A stretch of DNA of 64,000 bases from contig NZ_CP059068.1 of NCBI RefSeq assembly GCF_017798165.1, forward strand, positions 2,170,001 to 2,234,000, read 5' to 3'. Positions 12,769 to 56,602 of this stretch are shown piece after piece. A model generated the notes under the pieces. That model did not search any database. It was not told the DNA's origin and saw nothing but the letters and a program-made list of their open reading frames with translations. Within the stretch, counting starts at the first letter, position 1, and every line of letters starts with the position of its first letter. Position numbers and translations under genes: made by a program. This stretch comes from Rhodoferax sp. AJA081-3 (GTDB lineage: Bacteria > Pseudomonadota > Gammaproteobacteria > Burkholderiales > Burkholderiaceae_C).

Positions 12769-14640
12769 ATGTCCATGCGCGCCTTTATCGATTTCGCCGC
12801 CATCCAGGCCCCCAACCCGCAGAGTCCCAACGGCGCCTCCACGCCGGGCAAGGTCTTGCCCGCGGGATCGCCCGCGCTGCGCCTGGCATTTGGAACGCCA
12901 GTTGAAGTATTGGTGGCGCACACACTGGACCAGGTGAAGGATGTTTTGCAGGCCGTGGAGGCGCGCGCCCTGCAAGGCCAATGGTGTGTGGGTTACCTGC
13001 GTTACGAGGCCGCTCCGGCTTTCGACCGTGCGCTGGCCGTGCACCCGGCCACCGGACCTCTGGCCTGGTTTGGCGTGCACGATGCGCCGCTGCCTTCGGA
13101 ACAACTCGGTCCCGACCCACAAACCCCAACGGCCGACGGCACGCGCCGCGCCACCTGGCAGCCCGGCATCTCGCGTGCAAACTTCGATGGCGCCATGGAC
13201 CGCCTGCACCAGGCCATTTCCGATGGCGAGATCTACCAGGCCAACCTCACGGCCCGCAACGAAGGGCAGTTGCACCTGCCGCCCTGGGAGCTGTTCAGCG
13301 CCATGCGCCAGGCCCAGCCCGGTGGTTTTGCCGCCTATATTGACGCGGGTGATGAACAGGTGTTATCGGTATCACCCGAGCTGTTTTTTGACTGGCACCT
13401 AGGCCACATCGTGACCCGCCCCATGAAAGGCACGGCCCCGCGCGGCCGCACGCCCGAAGAAGACACAGCGCTAGCCCAAGGGCTGCGCAGCTCGCCCAAA
13501 GAGCGGGCAGAAAACGTGATGATCGTGGACCTGATCCGCAACGATCTGTCGCGCGTGGCCCAGCCTTTCTCGGTGACGGTGGATGGCCTGTGCCGCGTGC
13601 AAGCACTGTCCACCGTATGGCAAATGGTCAGTGATGTCCATGCCGACACCCGCCCCGGTTGCAGCCTGGTGGACGTGTTCACGGCGCTGTTCCCCTGTGG
13701 CTCGGTCACCGGTGCGCCCAAGGTACAGGCCATGCGGCTGATCCGCGAACTGGAAGACACAGACCGCGCCATCTACTGCGGCGCCGTTGGCGTGGTGCGC
13801 CCCGGTGGCAGTGCCACCTTTAATGTGCCCATCCGAACCGTGCTGGCCCAGGGCGAACACCTGCGCACCGGCACCGGCAGCGGCATCACGTCGGATGCCG
13901 AGGCGGGCGGCGAATGGCAGGAGTGGCGTCACAAACAGGCCTACCTGACCCGCGCGAGCCAGTCCTTTGCGTTGTTGGAAACGCTGGCACTGCAAAACGG
14001 AGTTTTTCACCAGGTTGACGCCCACCTGGCGCGCATGGCGTCTTCTGCAGCACACTTTGGGTTTCTTTGGCAGTCAGAGGCGGTACACGCGGCACTCACG
14101 GCGCTGTGCCTGCAGCACCCTGCCGGCGTCTGGCGTGTGCGGCTGCTGCTGGATGCCGCGGGCTCGCCACGGGTCGAGGCCTTTGCCCTGCCCGCCACGC
14201 CCACTACCGTGCGCCTGCAGCTGGCAGACCGCCCCCTGCTGCTGGCCGGCAGCGAATTTGTGCGCCACAAGACGACGCGCCGCGCCCATTACGAGCAGTT
14301 TGCGCCCACTAACCCGGCCGTATTCGATACCGTGCTGTGGAACACCAAAGGTGAAATCGCCGAATGCACGCGCGGCAACATCGCTCTGCTACTGGATGAC
14401 CGCTGGGTCACACCAGCTGCGCAATGCGGCCTGTTGCCCGGCGTGGGGCGTGCGCATTGGCTGGCTGAGGGACGCGTCGAGGAAGCCGTCGTGCACCTGA
14501 AAGATTTGCCCCGCGTAGATGCCATGGCATTCATCAACAGCCTGCGGGGCTGGGTGGATGCGGTATGGGACATGCCGCTGGCGCAGCTACTGCCGTCCAA
14601 TTGGGACGACGGTGAGCATGGAGCACTGATGCCCGGCTAG
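12769..14640 (+). CDS. pabB: fused aminodeoxychorismate synthase component I and aminodeoxychorismate lyase
   Basis: Makes p-aminobenzoate for folate: chorismate to 4-amino-4-deoxychorismate (PabB half), then loss of pyruvate (PabC half, PLP-dependent). The chorismate-binding domain spans about 120-400, with KGTAPRGRTPEEDTALAQGL, ENVMIVDLIRNDLSRV, and the C-terminal GTGSGITSDAEAGGEW motif. The PabC half starts at about 410 (LLETLALQNGVFHQVDAH), includes KTTRRAHYEQF with the expected PLP lysine, and ends with the class IV motif ECTRGNIALLL. 623 aa fits the known fusion. A second ATG two codons in is equally possible. Its stop codon lies inside a long hairpin. Confidence 0.92.
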   Translation: MSMRAFIDFAAIQAPNPQSPNGASTPGKVLPAGSPALRLAFGTPVEVLVAHTLDQVKDVLQAVEARALQGQWCVGYLRYEAAPAFDRALAVHPATGPLAWFGVHDAPLPSEQLGPDPQTPTADGTRRATWQPGISRANFDGAMDRLHQAISDGEIYQANLTARNEGQLHLPPWELFSAMRQAQPGGFAAYIDAGDEQVLSVSPELFFDWHLGHIVTRPMKGTAPRGRTPEEDTALAQGLRSSPKERAENVMIVDLIRNDLSRVAQPFSVTVDGLCRVQALSTVWQMVSDVHADTRPGCSLVDVFTALFPCGSVTGAPKVQAMRLIRELEDTDRAIYCGAVGVVRPGGSATFNVPIRTVLAQGEHLRTGTGSGITSDAEAGGEWQEWRHKQAYLTRASQSFALLETLALQNGVFHQVDAHLARMASSAAHFGFLWQSEAVHAALTALCLQHPAGVWRVRLLLDAAGSPRVEAFALPATPTTVRLQLADRPLLLAGSEFVRHKTTRRAHYEQFAPTNPAVFDTVLWNTKGEIAECTRGNIALLLDDRWVTPAAQCGLLPGVGRAHWLAEGRVEEAVVHLKDLPRVDAMAFINSLRGWVDAVWDMPLAQLLPSNWDDGEHGALMPG

Positions 14641-14732
14641 GGGCCTGGGTGCCAGTGCATTCTGCGCAGGTCAAGGAGGAGGCCGAAGGCCGGGGGACAC
14701 GGAGCAGAACGCACTGGCACCCAGGCCCCTAG
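14637..14732. repeat. conserved-loop, variable-arm hairpin, class II copy A
   Basis: Arms 14637-14664 and 14705-14732 pair at 27 of 28 positions around a 40-base loop. The loop has the form AGGTNAAGGNGGAG, then an inner stem GGCC-GAA-GGCC, then GGNGGACACG. A second copy at 24922-25013 has the same loop skeleton but unrelated arms. The pabBC stop codon is part of the left arm. It separates pabBC from the convergent dtd, so it may act as a bidirectional terminator, but it has no poly-T tract. Confidence 0.75.
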
Positions 14733-14745
14733 CCCCACCACACAT

Positions 14746-48329: not shown

Positions 48330-48680
48330 CTACAGCTCTGTGTATTTGGTCGCTGTGCCTCGCGCCGCATCCACCGGGTACTTCTGCGCATTGACCAGCA
48401 TCTTGGCTTGGGCGGCAGCCACCAAATCGATGCCCAGCTTGTCGCACAGTTGCAGCAGGTAGAGGAACACATCTGCCGCCTCGGCCGCCACTTCGTCCTT
48501 CTTGTCGGGCGACAGCGCCTGGCTCTGGGCTTCGGTCAGCCACTGGAAGTGCTCCAGCAATTCCGCGGACTCTACCGACAGCGCACAAGCCAGATTCTTG
48601 GGCGTGTGAAACTGCTCCCAGTCACGTGCTGCGGCAAACACGCGCAGGGCATCCACCAGGGGCTGTAGGGGGCTATCCAT
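48330..48680 (-). CDS. MazG-like nucleotide pyrophosphohydrolase
   Basis: A 116-aa all-alpha NTP pyrophosphatase of the MazG/RS21-C6 type, which hydrolyses (d)NTPs such as dCTP or noncanonical nucleotides to monophosphates. The Mg site is spread over ESAELLEHFQW and DEVAAEAADVFLYLLQL (E-x3-E...E-x2-D pattern). A highly similar arrangement is known as a housecleaning enzyme. It lies 54 bases past the island remnant, in its own small unit before uvrA. Confidence 0.88.
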   Translation of the reverse strand: MDSPLQPLVDALRVFAAARDWEQFHTPKNLACALSVESAELLEHFQWLTEAQSQALSPDKKDEVAAEAADVFLYLLQLCDKLGIDLVAAAQAKMLVNAQKYPVDAARGTATKYTEL

Positions 48681-48698
48681 TGCAAAGTCCTTTAGGTG

Positions 48699-48755
48699 AA
48701 ATCATGCTCTAGCCCCCGTGAAATATAACGAATACGCTATTGATTTGATAGTATT
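48699..48755 (+). repeat. dispersed CTGTAGCCCCCGT repeat, copy 11
   Basis: Reads AATCATGCTCTAGCCCCCGT, then GAAATATAACGAATACGCTA, then a TTGATAGT end. It lies between the MazG-like gene start and the uvrA stop. Confidence 0.75.
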
Positions 48756-48765
48756 CATCACGTCC

Positions 48766-51700
48766 CTAACGCGCCAGCACTGCGGCCAGTGCCACACCGG
48801 TGTGTGTACCCAGCTGGACCACTGCCTCCGGTGTAGCCGCAGCCACCACTTGGCCACCGGCGTTGCCGCCGTCCGGCCCCAGGTCAATCACCCAGTCGGC
48901 CTCAGCAATCACATCCAGATCGTGCTCGATGACAACCACGCTGTGGCCAGCATTCACCAACCGGTGCAGCACCTGGATCAACTTTTCCACGTCCGCCATG
49001 TGCAGGCCCACCGTGGGTTCATCCAGCACGTACAGGGTGTGCGGCGCCTTGTTACCACGCTTGCCTATATCGTCGCGCACTTTGGAAAGCTCGGTCACCA
49101 GCTTGATGCGCTGCGCCTCGCCGCCGCTGAGTGTGGGTGACGGCTGGCCCAGCGTCAGGTAGCCCAGGCCCACGTCCTTCAGCAGTTGTAGCGGGTGGGC
49201 GATGCTGGGCATGGCGGCGAAGAAGTCCACCGCTTCATCCACTTCCATCTGCAGCACATCGCCAATGTTTTTGCCGCGCCAGGTGACAGCCTGGGTCTCG
49301 GGGTTGAAGCGCGCACCCTTGCAGGTTTCGCACAGCACTTTCACATCGGGCAAGAAGCTCATGCCGATGGTGCGGATGCCTTGGCCTTCGCAGCCCGGGC
49401 AGCGGCCTTCGCCGGTGTTGAAGCTGAAGCGATTGGCCGCGTAGCCGCGCGCCTTGGCTTCCAGTGTGTCGGCAAAGAGTTTGCGGATGGTGTCCCAAAA
49501 GCCGATGTAGGTGGCGGGGCAGCTGCGTGGGGTTTTGCCGATGGGGGTCTGGTCCACTTCCAGCACGCGGTCGATGGTCTCGAAGCCGGTGACGCCCTCG
49601 CAGCCGGTCCATTGGATTTTTTCGCCTGCCTCTAATGCGTCTCTGCCCGCTTTGGTGCTGCGTTTTTGGACGGCGACTTGTACGTTGGTTAGCAGCACGT
49701 CGCGTGCAAGGGTTGATTTGCCGGAGCCTGATACGCCGGTCACTGCGACCAGGCGTTTGAGGGGGATGTGGGCGGTGACGTTTTGCAGGTTGTGGAGGTT
49801 GGCGCCTTTGACTGTTATCCAGTCAATGGGCTCGTGTTTGGCTGAGCCCGCAGCGGGGGCAGCCAGGGCGGGATCCCCCGACGCGTAGCTGATGTCGTCA
49901 CCCGCCCTGGCCGCCCCCGCTGCTGCGTACTGGGCTGACACGCGCGCACGTTCTGCCAGCTCCGCGTTGGCTTCCACGCTGGACGACACGCGGGACGCGG
50001 CAATCAGCGCTGCCTTCAAGGCTTTGCCTTTCAACGGCTTGGGTCCGTTCGCGCTCCCCGCACCCGCGGCCGGAGCCGGTGCGCCGGGCGACGATTTGGG
50101 CTTGCCGTATGAGGAGCCCGGCGTACCGGCTTCGGCCGCAGCGAGCGCCAACGACTCCGCATACGAAACAACACCGCGACGCACCATGAAAGGATGCTTC
50201 ATCGCGTGCAGCAAATACCGCCCTGTCTGCGACTCCCCAGCCGCCTGCACATCCGCAACAGACCCTTCCGCAACGAGTCGCCCTCCCCGCTTACCCGCAC
50301 TGGGCCCAATGTCGATGATGTGGTCCGCATGGCGAATGGTGTCCTCGTCATGCTCCACCACCACCAGCGTATTGCCCTTGTCGCTGAGCGATCGCAAGGC
50401 CCCCAGCAGAATCTTGTTGTCCCGCGCATGCAGGCCAATCGTTGGCTCGTCCAGCACGTAACACACACCTTGCAAATTGCTGCCCAGTTGCGCGGCCAAA
50501 CGGATGCGCTGCGCCTCGCCACCGCTGAGCGTGGGGGCTCCACGGTCCAACGTCAGGTAGCCCAGGCCCACCTCTTCCAAAAACTCGAGACGGCTCTTGA
50601 TCTCTGGCACCAGGTCGCGCGCAATGTCACCCTCGCGCTTGGTCATGCCGCCCAGTACCTGCAGGGTCTGCACCCATTTGCGCACATCGGTCACACTCAA
50701 ACGTGCAATGTCGGTAATGCTCACGGCGTTGAACTGCACGGCCCGGGCGGTGGCGTTTAGCCGTGTGCCCTGGCAGGTAAGGCAGGTGGAATCGTGCAGG
50801 TCTTCGATATCGGCTTCGGCAAAGGTCTGCTCGCGGCCCTTGTTGTCGTCGTCCTTCACCGAATCGTCAAACACCTTACGCTGGTCTTTGGTCAGCGCCA
50901 CGCCGGTGCCCACACAATCCGGGCACCAGCCGTGTTTGCTGTTGTAGCTGAAGAGTCGTGGGTCCAGCTCCACATACGAGGTAGAACACACCGGGCAGGC
51001 GCGCTTAGTGGAGAACACCTGCACCTGGCCTATGCCGGCCGCGGGAGTACCCGCCAACATGGCTTCTTTCAGGCCATCCATGCCCGACAACACATGCACC
51101 ACACCCTTGCCATGCACCAGGGCCATGGCCAGCGCCTCGCGCAGTTGCGCTTCTTGCGCCGGGTTCACGTCCAGGCTGGCAACCGGCAGCTCGATGTTGT
51201 GTTCCTTGAACCGGTCGATGCGGGGGAAGTTGGTGGTGGGCAAGAAGTTGCCATCCACCCGCAGATGCGTGAACCCACGCGGCCGCGCCCAGTCTGCCAG
51301 CTCGGTGTACACACCCTTGCGGCCAGACACCAGGGGTGCCAACAGGCCTATGTGCTGCCCCCGGAAGTTCTTCAACAGCTGCGCCGCAATGCTGTCTGCC
51401 GACTGCGGCTCCACCGCCGCGCCATCGTGTATGCAGTGCTGCGTGCCCAGTTTGACGTACAGCAAACGCAAGAAATGCCAGACCTCGGTTGTCGTGCCCA
51501 CAGTGGACTTGCGACCCCCGCGTGACAGGCGCTGCTCAATGGCGACAGTAGGCGGAATGCCGTAGACCGCATCCACTTCAGGCCGGCCTGCCGGTTGAAC
51601 GATGCTGCGGGCATAAGCGTTCAGCGATTCCAGATAGCGGCGTTGGCCTTCGTTAAAGAGAATGTCGAACGCCAACGTGGATTTGCCAGAACCAGAAACC

Positions 51701-54700
51701 CCGGTAACGACATTGAACTTGCCCCGCGGAATATCCACCGATAGCGACTTAAGGTTGTGTTCCTTAGCATTGACGATACGAATGCTGTTATCCGCCGGGG
51801 ATGGGGTTACGCCGGGCGACGATTTGGGCTTGCCGTATGAGGAGCCCGGCGTGACCCCGTCCCCGGCAGCGAGAGCCAAATACTTCGCACTAGGCTCCGT
51901 CACCACATGCACAACACCCATTGCGGCCGCGTACTCACGCAAGGCCATGCCGGTGTGTGACGTGGCGTGTAGCAATAAATCTTCGGGCGTTCCATAGGCC
52001 ACGACCTCACCGCCGGCATCACCACCTTCCGGCCCCAGATCGATGAGCCAATCCGAAGCGCGGATCACGTCCAAATTGTGCTCAATTACCAGTAGCGAAT
52101 GCCCCGCATCCAGCAACTTGCGCAGCGCACGCATCAGCTTGGCGATGTCATCAAAGTGCAGACCCGTGGTCGGCTCGTCCAGCATGAACAGCGTGCCGCG
52201 CTTCGCCACTGCTTGGCGACTAGCGGTGCTGCTCTTGGCGGCCTCAGCCAGAAAGCCGGCCAGCTTCAACCGCTGCGCCTCGCCGCCTGACAAGGTAGGC
52301 ACAGGCTGCCCCAGCTTCACATACTCCAGCCCCACATCCACAATGGGCTGCAGCGCACGAATGACGTCGCGGTCGTTGGAAAACAGGTCAGCGGATTCGG
52401 TGACGGTCAGGTCCAGCACATCCGACACATTGACGCGTTTGCCCTTGCGCTCAATCGTCACCTCCAGAATCTCGGGCCGGTAACGTTTGCCATCACAGTC
52501 CGGGCAACGCAGGTATACGTCGCTCAAAAACTGCATCTCGATGTGTTCAAAACCCGAGCCACCGCAGGTGGGGCAACGCCCGTCGCCCCCGTTGAAGCTG
52601 AACTTGCTGGCCGTGTAGCCGCGCTCGCGCGACAGATCGGCACCAGCAAACAGTTCGCGGATCGCATCCCACGCGCCGACATAACTCACCGGGTTGGAGC
52701 GTGCGGTTTTGCCAATGGGCGATTGGTCCACAAACACCACCTCGCTCAACTGCTCGGCACCCAGCAGGCGTGCATGCGCGCCCGGCGTTTCAGTGGCCTT
52801 GCCGAAGTGGCGCAGCAAGGCGGGGGCCAGCACGTCCTGTATCAGCGTGGACTTGCCCGAGCCGCTGACGCCGGTGACACACACCAGACGCTGCAGCGGA
52901 ATGTCGACCGAGATGCTCTTGAGGTTGTGCTCGGTCACTCCTTCCAGAATCAGGCGGGGGGTGTTCTCGGCCACCATGCGCTTGAAGCCCATGCCCACCT
53001 GTTTGCGGCCACCCAGGTAGGCACCAGTTAGGGTGTCGGCGCCCTTGAGTGCTTCGGTGCTGCCGTCAAACACGATTTGACCGCCCTTCTCACCAGGGCC
53101 AGGGCCCATGTCGATCATGCGGTCTGCGGCGAGCATGACGGCCGGGTCATGCTCCACCACCACCAGCGTGTTGCCCGCATCGCGCAGGCGCTGCATGGCC
53201 ACGATGATGCGGTGCATGTCGCGGGGGTGCAGGCCTATGCTGGGTTCGTCTAGTACGAAGAGTGTGTTGACCAGGGAAGTGCCCAGCGCGGTGGTCAGGT
53301 TGATGCGTTGGACTTCGCCGCCGCTGAGGGTTCGGCTTTGGCGGTCTAACGTGAGGTAGCCTATGCCTACGTCGCACAGGTACTTGAGTCTGGTGCAGAC
53401 TTCTTCCAGCAGCAGTTTTAGCGTTTTGGCTTCGGCCTCTGAGGTGGCTGGGACTGGGGGTATGGCGGGCGCCTCATGGTGCGAGCACAAATCGTTGCCC
53501 GCCAAACCCCCAGCCCCAGCTTCGTACTCGATGGAAGAATGCAGAACATCCGAATGCACCGCCGCACCAAAGGACTTGCCGCCCTCCGCCGGAGACACGG
53601 CTGTGCTGGGCGGAGTGAGGTTGCCGGGCGACGATTTGGGCTCGCCGTATGAGGAGCCCGGCAACCCCGCTTCGCCCAGCACAGCTTGCAGCGAATCGAA
53701 GAAGCGCCTCAACTTGTCGATAGGCAGCAACATCAAATCATGCAAACACAAGCCCGGCAACGCTTCCAACTGCGCACGCGACCACGAAACCCCTTGCGGC
53801 ATAAACCGCTTGGAGGGCAACAACACAGCATTCGCCTGTGCCTTGGTTCCAATACGCCACAACAGACTCTCGGTCTTGAGCCGCGCCCCACCACAGGTGC
53901 CACAGGGCGTGTAGCTGCGGTACTTGGACAGCAGCACACGGATGTGCATCTTGTAGGCCTTGGTCTCCAGGTAGGCGAAGAAACGGTTGATGCCAAACCA
54001 GTGCTGGTTCCACTTGCCGTTCCAGTTGGGTGAGCCGTTGATGACCCAGCCTTGTTGTTCGGGCGTCAGCTTGTACCAGGGCGTGTCGCGCGGTATGCCG
54101 GCCGCCTCGGCATGGCGCATCAGGTCGTCCTGGCACTCCTGCCAGGCGGGCGTCTGCATGGGCTTGACGGCACCGGCACGCAGCGTGAGTTTGTCATTGG
54201 GGATGACCAGGCCCAGGTCGACGCCGACAACCCGCCCGAAGCCACGGCAGGCTTCGCACGCGCCGACTGCCGAGTTGAATGAAAACATGGACGCAATCGG
54301 GTCCGTGTAGCGGATATCACTTTGCGGACAGTGCAGGCCGGTGGAGAAGCGCCACACGACAGGCTCTGCATTTGCTATGGAATTCGTAGTGGTATCACCA
54401 GATTCCACGGGGGCCACAGCCTCATTTAGCACATAGACGTTCAGGCGACCGCTGCCGCGTTTGAGGGCTACTTCGATGGCCTCCAGCACACGTGCTTTAT
54501 CTACGCTGGTGATGCGGAAGCGGTCGGCTACTACGTCTAGGACTTTTCTCCGGCGAGAGTCGGAAACGGGGTCAGAGCCCGATTTCGTACCAGGCTTCGC
54601 GCTCCGTTTTGTTTTCTTTCCTGAATCGGGATCTGACCCCGTTTCCGCCACCTCCACTTCACGCTCAGCGTGGATGCGGGTAAAGCCGCTGGCGGACAAC

Positions 54701-55218
54701 CATTGGGTCAGTTCTTCGGCCGTGGTGCTGGCCGGCAATTCGACGGGGAAGGTCAACACCAGCCGGGGGTCGGCGAGTGTTGCGGCGCGGCGCACCAGTT
54801 CGGCGTAGATGGTCTCGGGTGTGTCGTGCTGCACCGGCAGTGCGGTTTGCTTGTCGAACAGCTGGGCCGCGCGGGAGTAAAGCAGTTTGACGTGGTCGTT
54901 CAGCTCCGTCATCGTGCCCACGGTGGAGCGGCTGGAGCGCACGGGGTTGGTCTGGTCGATGGCAATCGCGGGGGGCACCCCCTCCACCTTGTCTACCGCC
55001 GGTTTGTCCATGCGGTCCAGAAACTGGCGGGCGTAGGCACTGAAGGTTTCTACATAGCGGCGCTGGCCTTCGGCATACAAGGTGTCGAACACCAGGCTGG
55101 ATTTGCCCGAGCCGCTGGGGCCGGTGACCACGGTCAACTCACCCGTGCGGATATCCAGATCAATGTTCTTCAGATTGTGCTGGCGCGCGCCGCGGATGCG
55201 GATGGTTCCCTGGGTCAT
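48766..55218 (-). CDS. uvrA: tandem UvrA-like excinuclease ATPase, two UvrA modules in one 2150-aa chain
   Basis: UvrA recognises bulky DNA lesions in nucleotide excision repair. Normal UvrA is about 940 aa. This chain carries two full modules (about 1-1120 and 1147-2150). It has four Walker A sites (first GPSGSGKSS, then GVSGSGKST three times), four LSGGEVQR or LSGGEAQR signatures and four LDEP..GLH Walker B sites. Zinc-finger pairs such as CPTCGGSGFEH and CPGCEGQGI are present in each. At least six repeat elements are inserted in frame, around residues 191-219, 263-282, 511-539, 566-590, 1117-1141 and 1693-1717. Similar tandem UvrA proteins are annotated in Burkholderiales. A separate standard uvrA may exist elsewhere. 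Confidence 0.9.
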   Translation of the reverse strand: MTQGTIRIRGARQHNLKNIDLDIRTGELTVVTGPSGSGKSSLVFDTLYAEGQRRYVETFSAYARQFLDRMDKPAVDKVEGVPPAIAIDQTNPVRSSRSTVGTMTELNDHVKLLYSRAAQLFDKQTALPVQHDTPETIYAELVRRAATLADPRLVLTFPVELPASTTAEELTQWLSASGFTRIHAEREVEVAETGSDPDSGKKTKRSAKPGTKSGSDPVSDSRRRKVLDVVADRFRITSVDKARVLEAIEVALKRGSGRLNVYVLNEAVAPVESGDTTTNSIANAEPVVWRFSTGLHCPQSDIRYTDPIASMFSFNSAVGACEACRGFGRVVGVDLGLVIPNDKLTLRAGAVKPMQTPAWQECQDDLMRHAEAAGIPRDTPWYKLTPEQQGWVINGSPNWNGKWNQHWFGINRFFAYLETKAYKMHIRVLLSKYRSYTPCGTCGGARLKTESLLWRIGTKAQANAVLLPSKRFMPQGVSWSRAQLEALPGLCLHDLMLLPIDKLRRFFDSLQAVLGEAGLPGSSYGEPKSSPGNLTPPSTAVSPAEGGKSFGAAVHSDVLHSSIEYEAGAGGLAGNDLCSHHEAPAIPPVPATSEAEAKTLKLLLEEVCTRLKYLCDVGIGYLTLDRQSRTLSGGEVQRINLTTALGTSLVNTLFVLDEPSIGLHPRDMHRIIVAMQRLRDAGNTLVVVEHDPAVMLAADRMIDMGPGPGEKGGQIVFDGSTEALKGADTLTGAYLGGRKQVGMGFKRMVAENTPRLILEGVTEHNLKSISVDIPLQRLVCVTGVSGSGKSTLIQDVLAPALLRHFGKATETPGAHARLLGAEQLSEVVFVDQSPIGKTARSNPVSYVGAWDAIRELFAGADLSRERGYTASKFSFNGGDGRCPTCGGSGFEHIEMQFLSDVYLRCPDCDGKRYRPEILEVTIERKGKRVNVSDVLDLTVTESADLFSNDRDVIRALQPIVDVGLEYVKLGQPVPTLSGGEAQRLKLAGFLAEAAKSSTASRQAVAKRGTLFMLDEPTTGLHFDDIAKLMRALRKLLDAGHSLLVIEHNLDVIRASDWLIDLGPEGGDAGGEVVAYGTPEDLLLHATSHTGMALREYAAAMGVVHVVTEPSAKYLALAAGDGVTPGSSYGKPKSSPGVTPSPADNSIRIVNAKEHNLKSLSVDIPRGKFNVVTGVSGSGKSTLAFDILFNEGQRRYLESLNAYARSIVQPAGRPEVDAVYGIPPTVAIEQRLSRGGRKSTVGTTTEVWHFLRLLYVKLGTQHCIHDGAAVEPQSADSIAAQLLKNFRGQHIGLLAPLVSGRKGVYTELADWARPRGFTHLRVDGNFLPTTNFPRIDRFKEHNIELPVASLDVNPAQEAQLREALAMALVHGKGVVHVLSGMDGLKEAMLAGTPAAGIGQVQVFSTKRACPVCSTSYVELDPRLFSYNSKHGWCPDCVGTGVALTKDQRKVFDDSVKDDDNKGREQTFAEADIEDLHDSTCLTCQGTRLNATARAVQFNAVSITDIARLSVTDVRKWVQTLQVLGGMTKREGDIARDLVPEIKSRLEFLEEVGLGYLTLDRGAPTLSGGEAQRIRLAAQLGSNLQGVCYVLDEPTIGLHARDNKILLGALRSLSDKGNTLVVVEHDEDTIRHADHIIDIGPSAGKRGGRLVAEGSVADVQAAGESQTGRYLLHAMKHPFMVRRGVVSYAESLALAAAEAGTPGSSYGKPKSSPGAPAPAAGAGSANGPKPLKGKALKAALIAASRVSSSVEANAELAERARVSAQYAAAGAARAGDDISYASGDPALAAPAAGSAKHEPIDWITVKGANLHNLQNVTAHIPLKRLVAVTGVSGSGKSTLARDVLLTNVQVAVQKRSTKAGRDALEAGEKIQWTGCEGVTGFETIDRVLEVDQTPIGKTPRSCPATYIGFWDTIRKLFADTLEAKARGYAANRFSFNTGEGRCPGCEGQGIRTIGMSFLPDVKVLCETCKGARFNPETQAVTWRGKNIGDVLQMEVDEAVDFFAAMPSIAHPLQLLKDVGLGYLTLGQPSPTLSGGEAQRIKLVTELSKVRDDIGKRGNKAPHTLYVLDEPTVGLHMADVEKLIQVLHRLVNAGHSVVVIEHDLDVIAEADWVIDLGPDGGNAGGQVVAAATPEAVVQLGTHTGVALAAVLAR
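49850..49923. repeat. variable-arm hairpin in uvrA, class I copy 5 (doubtful)
   Basis: Arms 49850-49872 and 49901-49923 pair at 22 of 23 positions. The loop is 28 bases, or 26 if a flanking A/A is counted with the arms, the same size as the class I loop, but only about 12-16 of 26 bases agree. Confidence 0.45.
50066..50139. repeat. variable-arm hairpin in uvrA, class I copy 1
   Basis: Arms 50066-50089 and 50116-50139 pair at 22 of 24. The 26-base loop (50090-50115) is GACGATTTGGGCTTGCC, then GTATGAGGA. Translated as GTPGSSYGKPKSSPGAP. Confidence 0.8.
51794..51867. repeat. variable-arm hairpin in uvrA, class I copy 2
   Basis: Arms 51794-51817 and 51844-51867 pair at 22 of 24, with a loop identical to copy 1 (51818-51843). 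Outer arms are unrelated to copy 1. It sits in the linker between the two UvrA modules and is translated as TPGSSYGKPKSSPGVTPSP. Confidence 0.8.
53447..53520. repeat. variable-arm hairpin in uvrA, class I copy 4 (reverse orientation)
   Basis: Arms 53447-53470 and 53497-53520 pair at 22 of 24. The 26-base loop, read in reverse, is AACGATTTGTGCTCGCAC, then CATGAGGC. It matches the class I loop with a different inner stem (GTGC/GCAC against GGGC/GCCG). It lies 80 bases from copy 3. Confidence 0.75.
53600..53685. repeat. variable-arm hairpin in uvrA, class I copy 3
   Basis: The longest arms: 53600-53629 and 53656-53685 pair at 27 of 30. The loop (53630-53655) differs from copies 1 and 2 by one base. 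Translated as AGLPGSSYGEPKSSPGNLT. Confidence 0.8.
54371..54428 (-). repeat. dispersed CTGTAGCCCCCGT repeat, copy 12, inside uvrA
   Basis: On the minus strand it reads GAGGCTGTGGCCCCCGTGG, then AATCTGGTGATACCACTACG, then AATTCCATAGC. It adds about 20 residues (around VESGDTTTNSIANAE) to the first module. Confidence 0.6.
54562..54646. repeat. REP-like palindrome inserted in uvrA
   Basis: Arms GGAAACGGGGTCAGAGCCCG (from 54562) and its near-complement ending at 54646 pair at 22 of 24 around a 37-base loop. The GGGGTCAGAGC text is shared with the element between tlyA and ahcY. It encodes an extra stretch near residues 191-219 (around SGSDPVSDSRRR). Confidence 0.7.
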
Positions 55219-55322
55219 GTGGCGGTGTCTTTCTGGATGAGGCCAATCATTCTAGGGACTTACTCCACCACGCTTTGCCGCAAGGACTTACACCTTGAGC
55301 GTGGGGGCAACAATTTTTCGCA

Positions 55323-55389
55323 GGGCCGCCCCAAGGAAAATTAGCCCCCTCGGGGGGCAGCGACCCGCGCAGCGGCGGAGCGTGGGGGC
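55323..55389 (-). repeat. 67-bp inverted repeat, left copy
   Basis: Reads GGGCCGCCCCAAGG, then TTAGCCCCCTCGGGGGGC, then AGCGACCCGC and GCGGCGGAGCGTGGGGGC. The right copy lies at 56610-56675 in opposite orientation. The end sequence GAGCGTGGGGGCAACA also occurs at 55298-55313, as a partial tandem copy. The CCCCCTCGGGGGG core folds into a stable hairpin. Confidence 0.8.
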
Positions 55390-55489
55390 AACATACACAC
55401 AAGGGCAAACCCGGATGTGGAAGTCCACAACTGGCGTGCTAGAGATACGCTTTGGACAATCACCACACAACAAAGCCAGGAGACATGCC

Positions 55490-56602
55490 ATGAAGATTGC
55501 CCACACCCTGTGGAGCGCGGCGCTGCTGACCGCGCTCGTGACCAGCGCACACGCCCAGTTGCGCATAGGCCAGCCCTCGGGATTCACCGGCTCGGCGGCG
55601 GCCGGCGTCAAGGAGAACACCGAGGGGGCCAAGCTCTATATCGACGCGGTCAACCGGCAGGGTGGCGTACACGGCCAGCAAATCGAACTGGTCACCGTGG
55701 ACGACAAGTTTGACCCCGCCACCACAGCCAAGGTGGGCCGTGCCCTGATCACCGAAAAGAACGTACTGGCCCTGTTCCTGAACCGCGGCACACCCCACTC
55801 ACAAGCCCTGCTGCCCATACTTGCCGAACTGCGGGTGCCACTGGTCGCCCCCAGCACCGGCGCCATGGTCCTGCATGACCCGGTCAACCCCTGGGTCTTC
55901 AATGTGCGCGCCACCTACCAGCGCGAGGCCATCAAGGCCATTCACCACCTCGCCAGCCTGGGCGTAAGTCGCATTGCGGTACTGCAAACCGACGACTCCT
56001 TCGGCGCTGACGCGGCACTGGGGGCAGAAAAAGGCTTTGCCGCAACCGGCCTCAAGCCAGCCTTGCTGCAAAAATTTCCCCGCGAAAAACCGGACCTGGC
56101 CGAGCTGGCCAGCAAGGTCAAGGCCAGCGATGCGCAGGCCGTGCTCTATATCGGTTCATCCAACAATGTGGCCAGTGGCGTCAAAGCCCTGCGCGAGTCA
56201 GGCCAGACCCTGCAGGTGGTGACCCTGTCCAACAATGCGTCCGAAGGTTTCATCAAGGCGCTGGGCGAGCATGCCCGAGGCGTGATCGTGACCCAGGTCT
56301 TCCCCAACGAACGTGCGGTGAACTACCGGCTGATCAAAGAGGCCCAGGAACTGGCCAAGACCAAGGGCTTGAGCGGCGTGTCGCCCGCCATGATTGAAGG
56401 ATTTGCCGCCGCCAAGGTGCTGGTCGAAGGCCTGCGCCGGGCAGGCCCCAAGCCCACGCCCAGTGGTCTGCGCGATGCGCTGGAATCCATGCATAAGTTT
56501 GACCTGGGTGGCCTGGACGTGAGTTACAGCGCCAACGACCACAGTGGCCTGGACTTTGCCGACCTGTCCATCATTGGATCAGACGGTAAATTTATGCGGT
56601 AA
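55490..56602 (+). CDS. periplasmic amino-acid-type ABC transporter binding protein (LivK-like)
   Basis: A 370-aa type I periplasmic binding protein. A signal peptide (about 1-23, LWSAALLTALVTSAHA) is followed by LRIGQPSGFTGSAAAGVKEN, the start of the Leu/Ile/Val-binding fold. Lobe motifs QIELVTVDDKFDPATTAKV and APSTGAMVLHDPVNPWVF are present. The ATG at 55490 has an AGGAGA ribosome-binding site. The open frame runs back to 55295 only because it crosses a repeat. No permease or ATPase gene is adjacent, so it is an orphan or feeds another transporter. The gene is framed by inverted copies of a 67-bp repeat. Confidence 0.87.
   Translation: MKIAHTLWSAALLTALVTSAHAQLRIGQPSGFTGSAAAGVKENTEGAKLYIDAVNRQGGVHGQQIELVTVDDKFDPATTAKVGRALITEKNVLALFLNRGTPHSQALLPILAELRVPLVAPSTGAMVLHDPVNPWVFNVRATYQREAIKAIHHLASLGVSRIAVLQTDDSFGADAALGAEKGFAATGLKPALLQKFPREKPDLAELASKVKASDAQAVLYIGSSNNVASGVKALRESGQTLQVVTLSNNASEGFIKALGEHARGVIVTQVFPNERAVNYRLIKEAQELAKTKGLSGVSPAMIEGFAAAKVLVEGLRRAGPKPTPSGLRDALESMHKFDLGGLDVSYSANDHSGLDFADLSIIGSDGKFMR

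Follow-up and report, generated by a model that had tools for sequence, protein, structure and literature searches.

The attC sites of integrons are folded bottom strands of free sequence that lie behind genes and carry conserved core sites at their base. Repetitive extragenic palindromic (REP) elements tagged with GTAG or CGTC form inverted dimers and are located behind genes, and in-frame copies are reported from the uvrA genes of O. terrae and Thioalkalivibrio as well as from R. conorii uvrB (PMC3733652). The same study gives stems of 8–9 bp for CGTC REPs, equates the Rickettsia palindromic elements (RPEs) RPE-6 and RPE-4 with CGTC-1 and CGTC-4, and remarks that REP-like elements sit in genome-repair genes more often than chance would suggest. 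TnpA-REP proteins use the GTAG foot, the stem bulge, and the loop, according to another account (PMC8266576). Here, a hairpin family designated class I is described from the freshwater bacterium Rhodoferax sp. AJA081-3. The analyzed stretch of 64,000 nucleotides (nt), termed the window, covers positions 2170001–2234000 of a 5.17-Mb single-contig genome and contains a long uvrA gene with five class I hairpins. The favored reading, with a probability of roughly 55%, is that class I is a REP-like chromosomal hairpin family of Comamonadaceae in which selection keeps the folded shape of one defined strand.

Class I hairpins resemble REPs in that they are short palindromes, often form inverted pairs, often lie behind genes, and include in-frame copies in uvrA. 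They differ from REPs first at the foot. In a set of 71 distinct hairpins, nearly all outside uvrA (at least two, L130 and L146, are uvrA copies) and collected with an arm scoring that favors G.T, no unpaired GTAG or CGTC is conserved, and no position within 30 nt of either foot exceeds 0.38 bit. The second difference lies in the stem, which is short and family-specific in REPs, but long, free in sequence, and joined to a conserved tip in class I. The outer stem spans 24–28 bp in 60 of the 71 hairpins, with a mode of 26.

The likeness to RPEs drawn by the original prediction, which was made from the letters of the window, holds for behavior, as both are palindromes in frame within genes and class I occupies a repair gene. 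It does not appear to extend to sequence or tag: class I lacks the CGTC foot, and its arms are free in sequence. As in attC, the class I motif is also often found on the template strand of the preceding gene, but the flanks of the 71 hairpins contain no conserved sequence at the foot. No description of this design of tip and arms was found in the open-access literature.

The behavior of class I is thus REP-like, and in-frame REPs in uvrA are already known, but neither a GTAG or CGTC tag nor, at the loci scanned, a linked REP-associated tyrosine transposase (RAYT) is present. This genome has a Y1_Tnp gene, as do 25 of 31 genomes searched. Together with the inverted pairs, the location behind genes, and the in-frame uvrA copies described for REPs (PMC3733652), it would fit an ordinary tagged REP family, mobilized by RAYT, in permissive UvrA linkers. 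Such a family is nevertheless improbable, given the absence of a conserved foot and the contrast between the 8–9 bp stems of CGTC REPs in that study and the mostly 24–28 bp stems of free sequence here. Linkage to RAYT, with copies flanking its gene as in GTAG REPs, is not supported: a scan of 22 of the 30 Y1_Tnp loci gave 0 class I matches.

Conserved tip and distribution of class I

The class I tip is sequentially composed of C-GATTT, a short stem-loop, and YATGA-G, and is carried on a stem of free sequence. Its most constant part is an internal loop, GATTT/YATGA, with a closing C-G pair. The segment originally described as a 26-base loop contains a 3-bp inner stem, two pairs of which covary. 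The arms had been called unrelated between copies apart from their innermost ~7 bases. Their sequence is indeed free in most copies, but most copies have a G-rich left arm. The innermost GCCGGGC is common to three window copies only; in the copy at 53447 it reads GGCGGGC, and variants in relatives include GGGGGGC and GGCGGCT. On the motif strand, the 3' flank is T-poor over ~15 nt, with 3–10 T among 71 hairpins per position.

The 26-base loop, allowing up to 3 mismatches, yields the three expected direct copies in the window against 0.00 expected by chance, and no match in this genome outside those three. Across the whole genome, a looser loop pattern adds only the predicted reversed copy at 53447–53520 in the same uvrA, which is diverged (AACGATTTGTGCTCGCACCATGAGGC on the minus strand). 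Applied to 399 genomes of the family, the looser pattern matches 21 genomes (11 of 141 genera) at 59 places, and a backward control matches none. Many of the fetched matches lie in long uvrA open reading frames (ORFs), in both orientations, and others are intergenic.

A covariance model built from 42 hairpins (R1) finds 19 further places in this genome, in which the core C-GATTT ... YATGA-G is kept, tip lengths differ, and arms are free. A second model, R2, has matches in 17 of the 19 genus genomes but in 0 of 12 genomes from other families, and locates at least 28 class I places outside uvrA in this genome; up to 150 candidates were scored per genome, so that copy numbers are lower bounds. 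Among 250 genomes of the order, scanned with stricter filters and 18 scored candidates per genome (copy numbers again being lower bounds), three match, including this one, all of the same family. Class I hairpins are a dispersed family of Rhodoferax and some other Comamonadaceae, and the proposed genome-wide search with free arms, followed by covariance analysis, has thereby revealed both the family and the covariation of its arms. No exact pattern match was found in viral contigs, and none in plasmids for the one copy searched.

Paired changes in the arms

In the alignment of 42 hairpins, 25 of 27 stem pairs have changed on both sides. Double-changed cells number 299, compared with 82 on average after shuffling; in slid structures only 40–48% of cells pair. 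The 42 rows were hand-picked from fetched pattern matches and placed by their arms, which inflates the percentage paired in this alignment. The further 19 places alone contain 195 double-changed cells against 56 after shuffling.

At one orthologous locus, flanked by genes for an aldehyde dehydrogenase and a DUF779 protein, six genomes, chosen because they carry a hairpin there, were compared. Of the 29 outer pairs, 16 have double changes, for several of which a G.U intermediate also occurs, and pairing is kept in 96.9% of cells. At orthologous uvrA sites, the pairs that differ from the copy of this genome comprise 69 double changes, 28 single wobbles, and 16 broken pairs.

The motif strand

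Mismatches in the stems are strongly asymmetric. With symmetric mismatch scoring, 222 distinct hairpins contain 333 G.T against 29 A.C mismatches on the strand that reads GATTT...YATGA. Collapsing the set into 85 arm clusters leaves 118 G.T and 13 A.C mismatches; 59 hairpins lean to G.T and 3 to A.C, and 23 show no preference (p 1.7e-14). A backward control of the count yielded no hairpins. On the coding strand of uvrA, motif-sense copies have 33 G.T and 5 A.C mismatches, whereas motif-antisense copies have 58 A.C and 18 G.T. Since the sign of the mismatch follows the motif and not the direction of the gene, one defined strand is kept foldable. Fold predictions also favor the motif strand in 5 of 5 window copies, both as RNA (for example, −63.5 versus −49.7 kcal/mol) and as DNA (in one copy by just 0.1 kcal/mol).

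Selection therefore acts on the motif strand, whether as RNA or as single-stranded DNA; for antisense copies this strand differs from the uvrA mRNA, a candidate that the sign of the wobble rules out for them. Selection for pairing, one of two possibilities raised in the original prediction, is supported by the excess of covariation, the compensating changes at the six-genome locus, and the wobble bias of the motif strand. The stem compensates in place, and not only by copying.

A purely mutational origin of the matched arms, in which hairpin-templated correction by template switching acts without selection, is very improbable. It would explain arms matched at very different sequences and purine–pyrimidine flips that are as common as transition doubles at some sites, and a hybrid of two hairpins in one uvrA gene (G313) suggests tip-to-tip switching. 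However, such correction should not tell G.T from A.C on the motif strand, where the ratio is 333 to 29.

Gene context and RNA or DNA as the folded strand

Gene context was read from gene calls based on the author's own codon score. Many single copies follow a stop codon within 100 nt, their motif being antisense to the gene that ends there. Of 101 places, 31 are inside an ORF and 70 outside. For the 70 places, the nearest gene within 300 nt on the motif 3' side points toward the hairpin in 37, away from it in 21, and is missing in 12. Adjacent opposite copies form 17 pairs, 15 arranged as '-+' and 2 as '+-'.

Several roles were considered for these copies and set aside. The scanned neighbor genes are of mixed function, which does not indicate a common regulon. 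No T-run is seen by eye behind the copies inspected, as intrinsic terminators would have, and the internal loop looks symmetric by eye, in contrast to the kink-turn consensus. The orientation of the copies in this genome relative to replication shows no pattern by eye.

Recognition as single-stranded DNA is somewhat more likely than as RNA, because the inverted pairs give each DNA strand one foldable strand and because the motif of many single copies is on the template strand of the preceding gene. A serious but less probable alternative is an RNA element, in which the motif strand would function within mRNA or antisense transcripts, for instance by binding a protein and so determining transcript ends or stability. 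The covariation is RNA-like, with G.U intermediates, the 3' flank is T-poor, and the copy between the aldehyde dehydrogenase and DUF779 genes stands in mRNA sense close before the start codon in all six genomes. On the other hand, uvrA copies occur in both orientations, the antisense ones placing A.C mismatches in the mRNA, and many single copies are antisense to the preceding gene. Rfam 15 contains no family that matches window positions 48500–55500 or nine further loci at the gathering threshold; only microRNA-precursor models and one small-RNA model appear below it.

Concerted tips and independent arms

Class I copies number 141 in 47 of 105 distinct uvrA genes, a set from which only identical DNA was removed, so that some genomes may count twice. 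For the inner tips, likeness is higher across the sites of a single gene (0.80 in 120 comparisons) than when separate genes are compared at a matching site and orientation (0.62 in 1029 comparisons), and the within-gene value is reached by 0 of 500 re-dealings. The arms show the opposite trend, with 0.60 within one gene and 0.64 at the same site across genes. This comparison covers the copies with an assignable site, 35 of the 141 being left out. Outside uvrA, 17 inverted pairs have a tip likeness of 0.855 against 0.641 when re-dealt (0 of 1000), and the tips are identical in 5 of the 17.

Site A, one of three sites occupied in uvrA (Table 1), provides an example. The arms of its antisense hairpin are nearly identical between this genome and the relative G401 (one wobble, one broken pair), but the 9-nt inner tip differs at five positions (GGGCTCGCC and CGTGTACCC), and the G401 tip recurs in its other antisense copies. 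Tips, not arms, are homogenized within a gene and within inverted pairs.

Separately, at L042 346–371 and L040 5941–5966 a tip is joined to two arms from different hairpins, as if inverted copies had recombined; an assembly error is possible.

Empty sites and the copying of hairpins

The original prediction also suggested an insertion mechanism that copies flanking target in inverted orientation. To compare filled and empty sites, 137 linkers of the 105 uvrA genes were delimited, and only comparisons with at least 0.5 shared 5-mers were kept. Of the 45 comparisons of a filled site with the empty linker of another gene, 40 have neither arm above the 95% shuffle level; L209 and L227 against L240, all labeled Comamonas sp. 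lk, illustrate this result. Among the closest comparisons, with at least 0.6 shared 5-mers, neither arm is present in 10 of 15, and the more distant ones are weak tests because the target arm could have diverged. Target copying, which predicts one arm in the empty site, is therefore not supported as the source of the arms. Pre-existing palindromes are likewise not supported, as empty uvrA sites that already hold both arms are not seen.

A subfamily outside uvrA shares the arms GCAGAG...CTCTGC (L052, L055, L057, L060, L061, and L147–L151), which indicates that whole hairpins get copied. Shared arms of this kind had been named as evidence for an ordinary repeat. They are confined to one subfamily, and the arms vary freely between most copies. 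When the intergenic sites of six shared-arm copies were compared in 11 relatives, only the L060 site in G401 has the hairpin among the sites located and listed, and the other flanks align too poorly for an empty site to be read. A repeat-like string close to GAGTGGGGCGGAAGCGG occurs ~40 nt 3' of the shared-arm hairpins (in gene orientation) in L052, L060, and L150.

Palindromes that are selfish or neutral, tolerated in linkers and selected for nothing but their ability to be copied, are an unlikely explanation, although less so than an ordinary REP family. The shared-arm subfamily shows recent copying, the element is missing from some genomes of the genus, and the UvrA linkers of relatives hold several unrelated in-frame palindrome families. 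Copying ability alone does not explain the compensation at fixed orthologous loci.

Hairpins in the fused uvrA gene

The long UvrA contains two UvrA_inter stretches and ABC_tran in a domain scan (Table 1). PDB 2r6f aligns in two pieces with its first half, and site A falls within query residues 460–593, between chain residues 445 and 467 of the structure. UvrA relatives listed from named genomes belong mostly to Rhodoferax, Limnohabitans, Variovorax, and other Comamonadaceae. In addition to the fused gene, this genome has a UvrA-like ORF of 1059 aa at positions 3443124–3446135.

Table 1. Long uvrA gene and its class I hairpins (window coordinates)
Feature	Position	Strand	Arms	Basis
uvrA ORF, 2150 aa, two fused UvrA proteins, hairpin host	48766–55218	minus		ORF listing, UvrA_inter twice and ABC_tran, PDB 2r6f
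Class I hairpin at site A with antisense motif relative to uvrA; peptide PGSSYGEPKSSPG	53600–53685	plus	53600–53629/53656–53685, 30 nt, 90% complementary	arm scan; model R1 82.4 bits for 53606–53679
Class I hairpin at site A with sense motif relative to uvrA; peptide GNDLCSHHEAP	53447–53520	minus		arm scan, looser loop pattern; model R1 87.7 bits
Class I hairpin at site B, where the two UvrA halves join, with antisense motif relative to uvrA	51794–51867	plus	51794–51817/51844–51867, 24 nt, 92% complementary	arm scan; model R1 86.6 bits
Class I hairpin, site C, motif antisense to uvrA	50066–50139	plus		arm scan; model R1 84.6 bits
Diverged class I hairpin at site C with sense motif relative to uvrA, GACGACATCAGCTACGCGTCGGGGGA; peptide GDDISYASGDP	49850–49923	minus	49850–49872/49901–49923, 23 nt, 96% complementary	arm scan

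Long complementary arms, as described in the original prediction for four copies, are present in all five hairpins, with 26–28 nt between the arms. The fifth hairpin, with a diverged tip, is added to the four recognized earlier; it is absent from the R1 matches and is assigned by its position and its likeness to the same-site copy in G401.

The predicted in-frame insertion extends to all 141 uvrA copies, whose tip lengths are 1 mod 3 (22, 28, or 31 nt), with 140 starting in one phase. Only 1 of 69 tips from loci fetched outside uvrA is 1 mod 3. The lengths and phase suggest that the uvrA copies are under coding constraint, and the hairpins are presumably translated as flexible linkers with predicted PGSSYGKPKSSPG-type peptides. 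Where a site holds both orientations, the antisense copy comes first in 33 of 33 cases; 36 sites are antisense only and 4 sense only. The uvrA copies have probably multiplied within the gene.

The same linkers hold a second palindrome, class II (GGGGTCAGATCCCAATT...AATTGGGCTCTGACCCC), which is also in frame and has copy-specific matched bases outside its core. It differs from class I in its conserved stem and its loop, and its sequence is unrelated. A class II palindrome (CGGAAACGGGGTCAGATCCCGATT...AATCGGGCTCTGACCCCGTTTCCG) lies in frame in the same uvrA at window positions 54561–54647, and in relatives class II occupies other UvrA linkers, again with copy-specific matched bases outside the core. 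The uvrA linkers of Variovorax (L242, L248, L249, and L255) contain another in-frame palindrome family (CTCCCTCCCCC...GGGGGAGG), and further in-frame families are found in the same linkers of L280, L213, and L231, the last with TGTAGGAGCG and GTCATTGCGAGCG types. Elsewhere in the window, a long palindrome at 14635–14734, with 31-nt arms and a 38-nt loop, is the strongest hairpin in the scan and is unrelated to class I.

Discussion

The evidence taken together suggests how a REP-like family with one foldable strand may have arisen. Whole hairpins would be copied to new sites, after which the stems would drift in sequence while selection maintained their pairing. Near-identical tips may be kept alike by short-range recombination, as gene conversion or template switching, and the internal loop may be the recognition site of a putative protein. 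The uvrA copies occupy three loops or linkers in a single reading phase, the antisense copy leading where both orientations occur.

Several observations weigh against this reading. No trans factor was found. The tolerance of G.T fits RNA equally well as single-stranded DNA, and the conserved copy in the aldehyde dehydrogenase–DUF779 operon is in mRNA sense. Pairing is not absolute, as the 16 broken pairs at orthologous uvrA sites show. An arm is present in 5 of the 45 empty-site comparisons; four of these exceptions come from the single gene G313, which retains the outer arm of each of two hairpins and looks like a recombinant, and the fifth is L237. Within the intergenic inverted pairs, arm likeness is a little above that of re-dealt arms (40 of 1000), and conversion may thus extend into the stem. 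Finally, 2 of 19 genomes of the genus have no copy under model R2 and 58 of 105 uvrA genes have no class I copy, and the element is therefore dispensable.

It is a tentative proposal that class I represents a new class of chromosomal structured nucleic acid: a hairpin of set length that is recognized by its tip, whose stem sequence is irrelevant, whose defined strand is kept by host-level selection, whose inverted pairs provide each DNA strand with one copy, and which has been domesticated in uvrA as antisense followed by sense copies. Known palindromic repeats such as REPs are described by a conserved stem and a tag, whereas here shape, length, and tip are kept and the stem is free. The covariation is RNA-like and lies inside protein-coding DNA, often on the strand that is not mRNA. 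If the proposal is correct, Comamonadaceae would have a putative protein that binds the hairpin tip, and uvrA would satisfy its codons and the fold of the other strand together. The family is a natural test case for selection acting on single-stranded DNA or antisense-RNA structure, for concerted evolution driven by very short homologies, and for the way in which one gene can accommodate both its codons and a hairpin on its other strand. It also makes testable the remark, in the REP study, on REP-like elements in genome-repair genes (PMC3733652).

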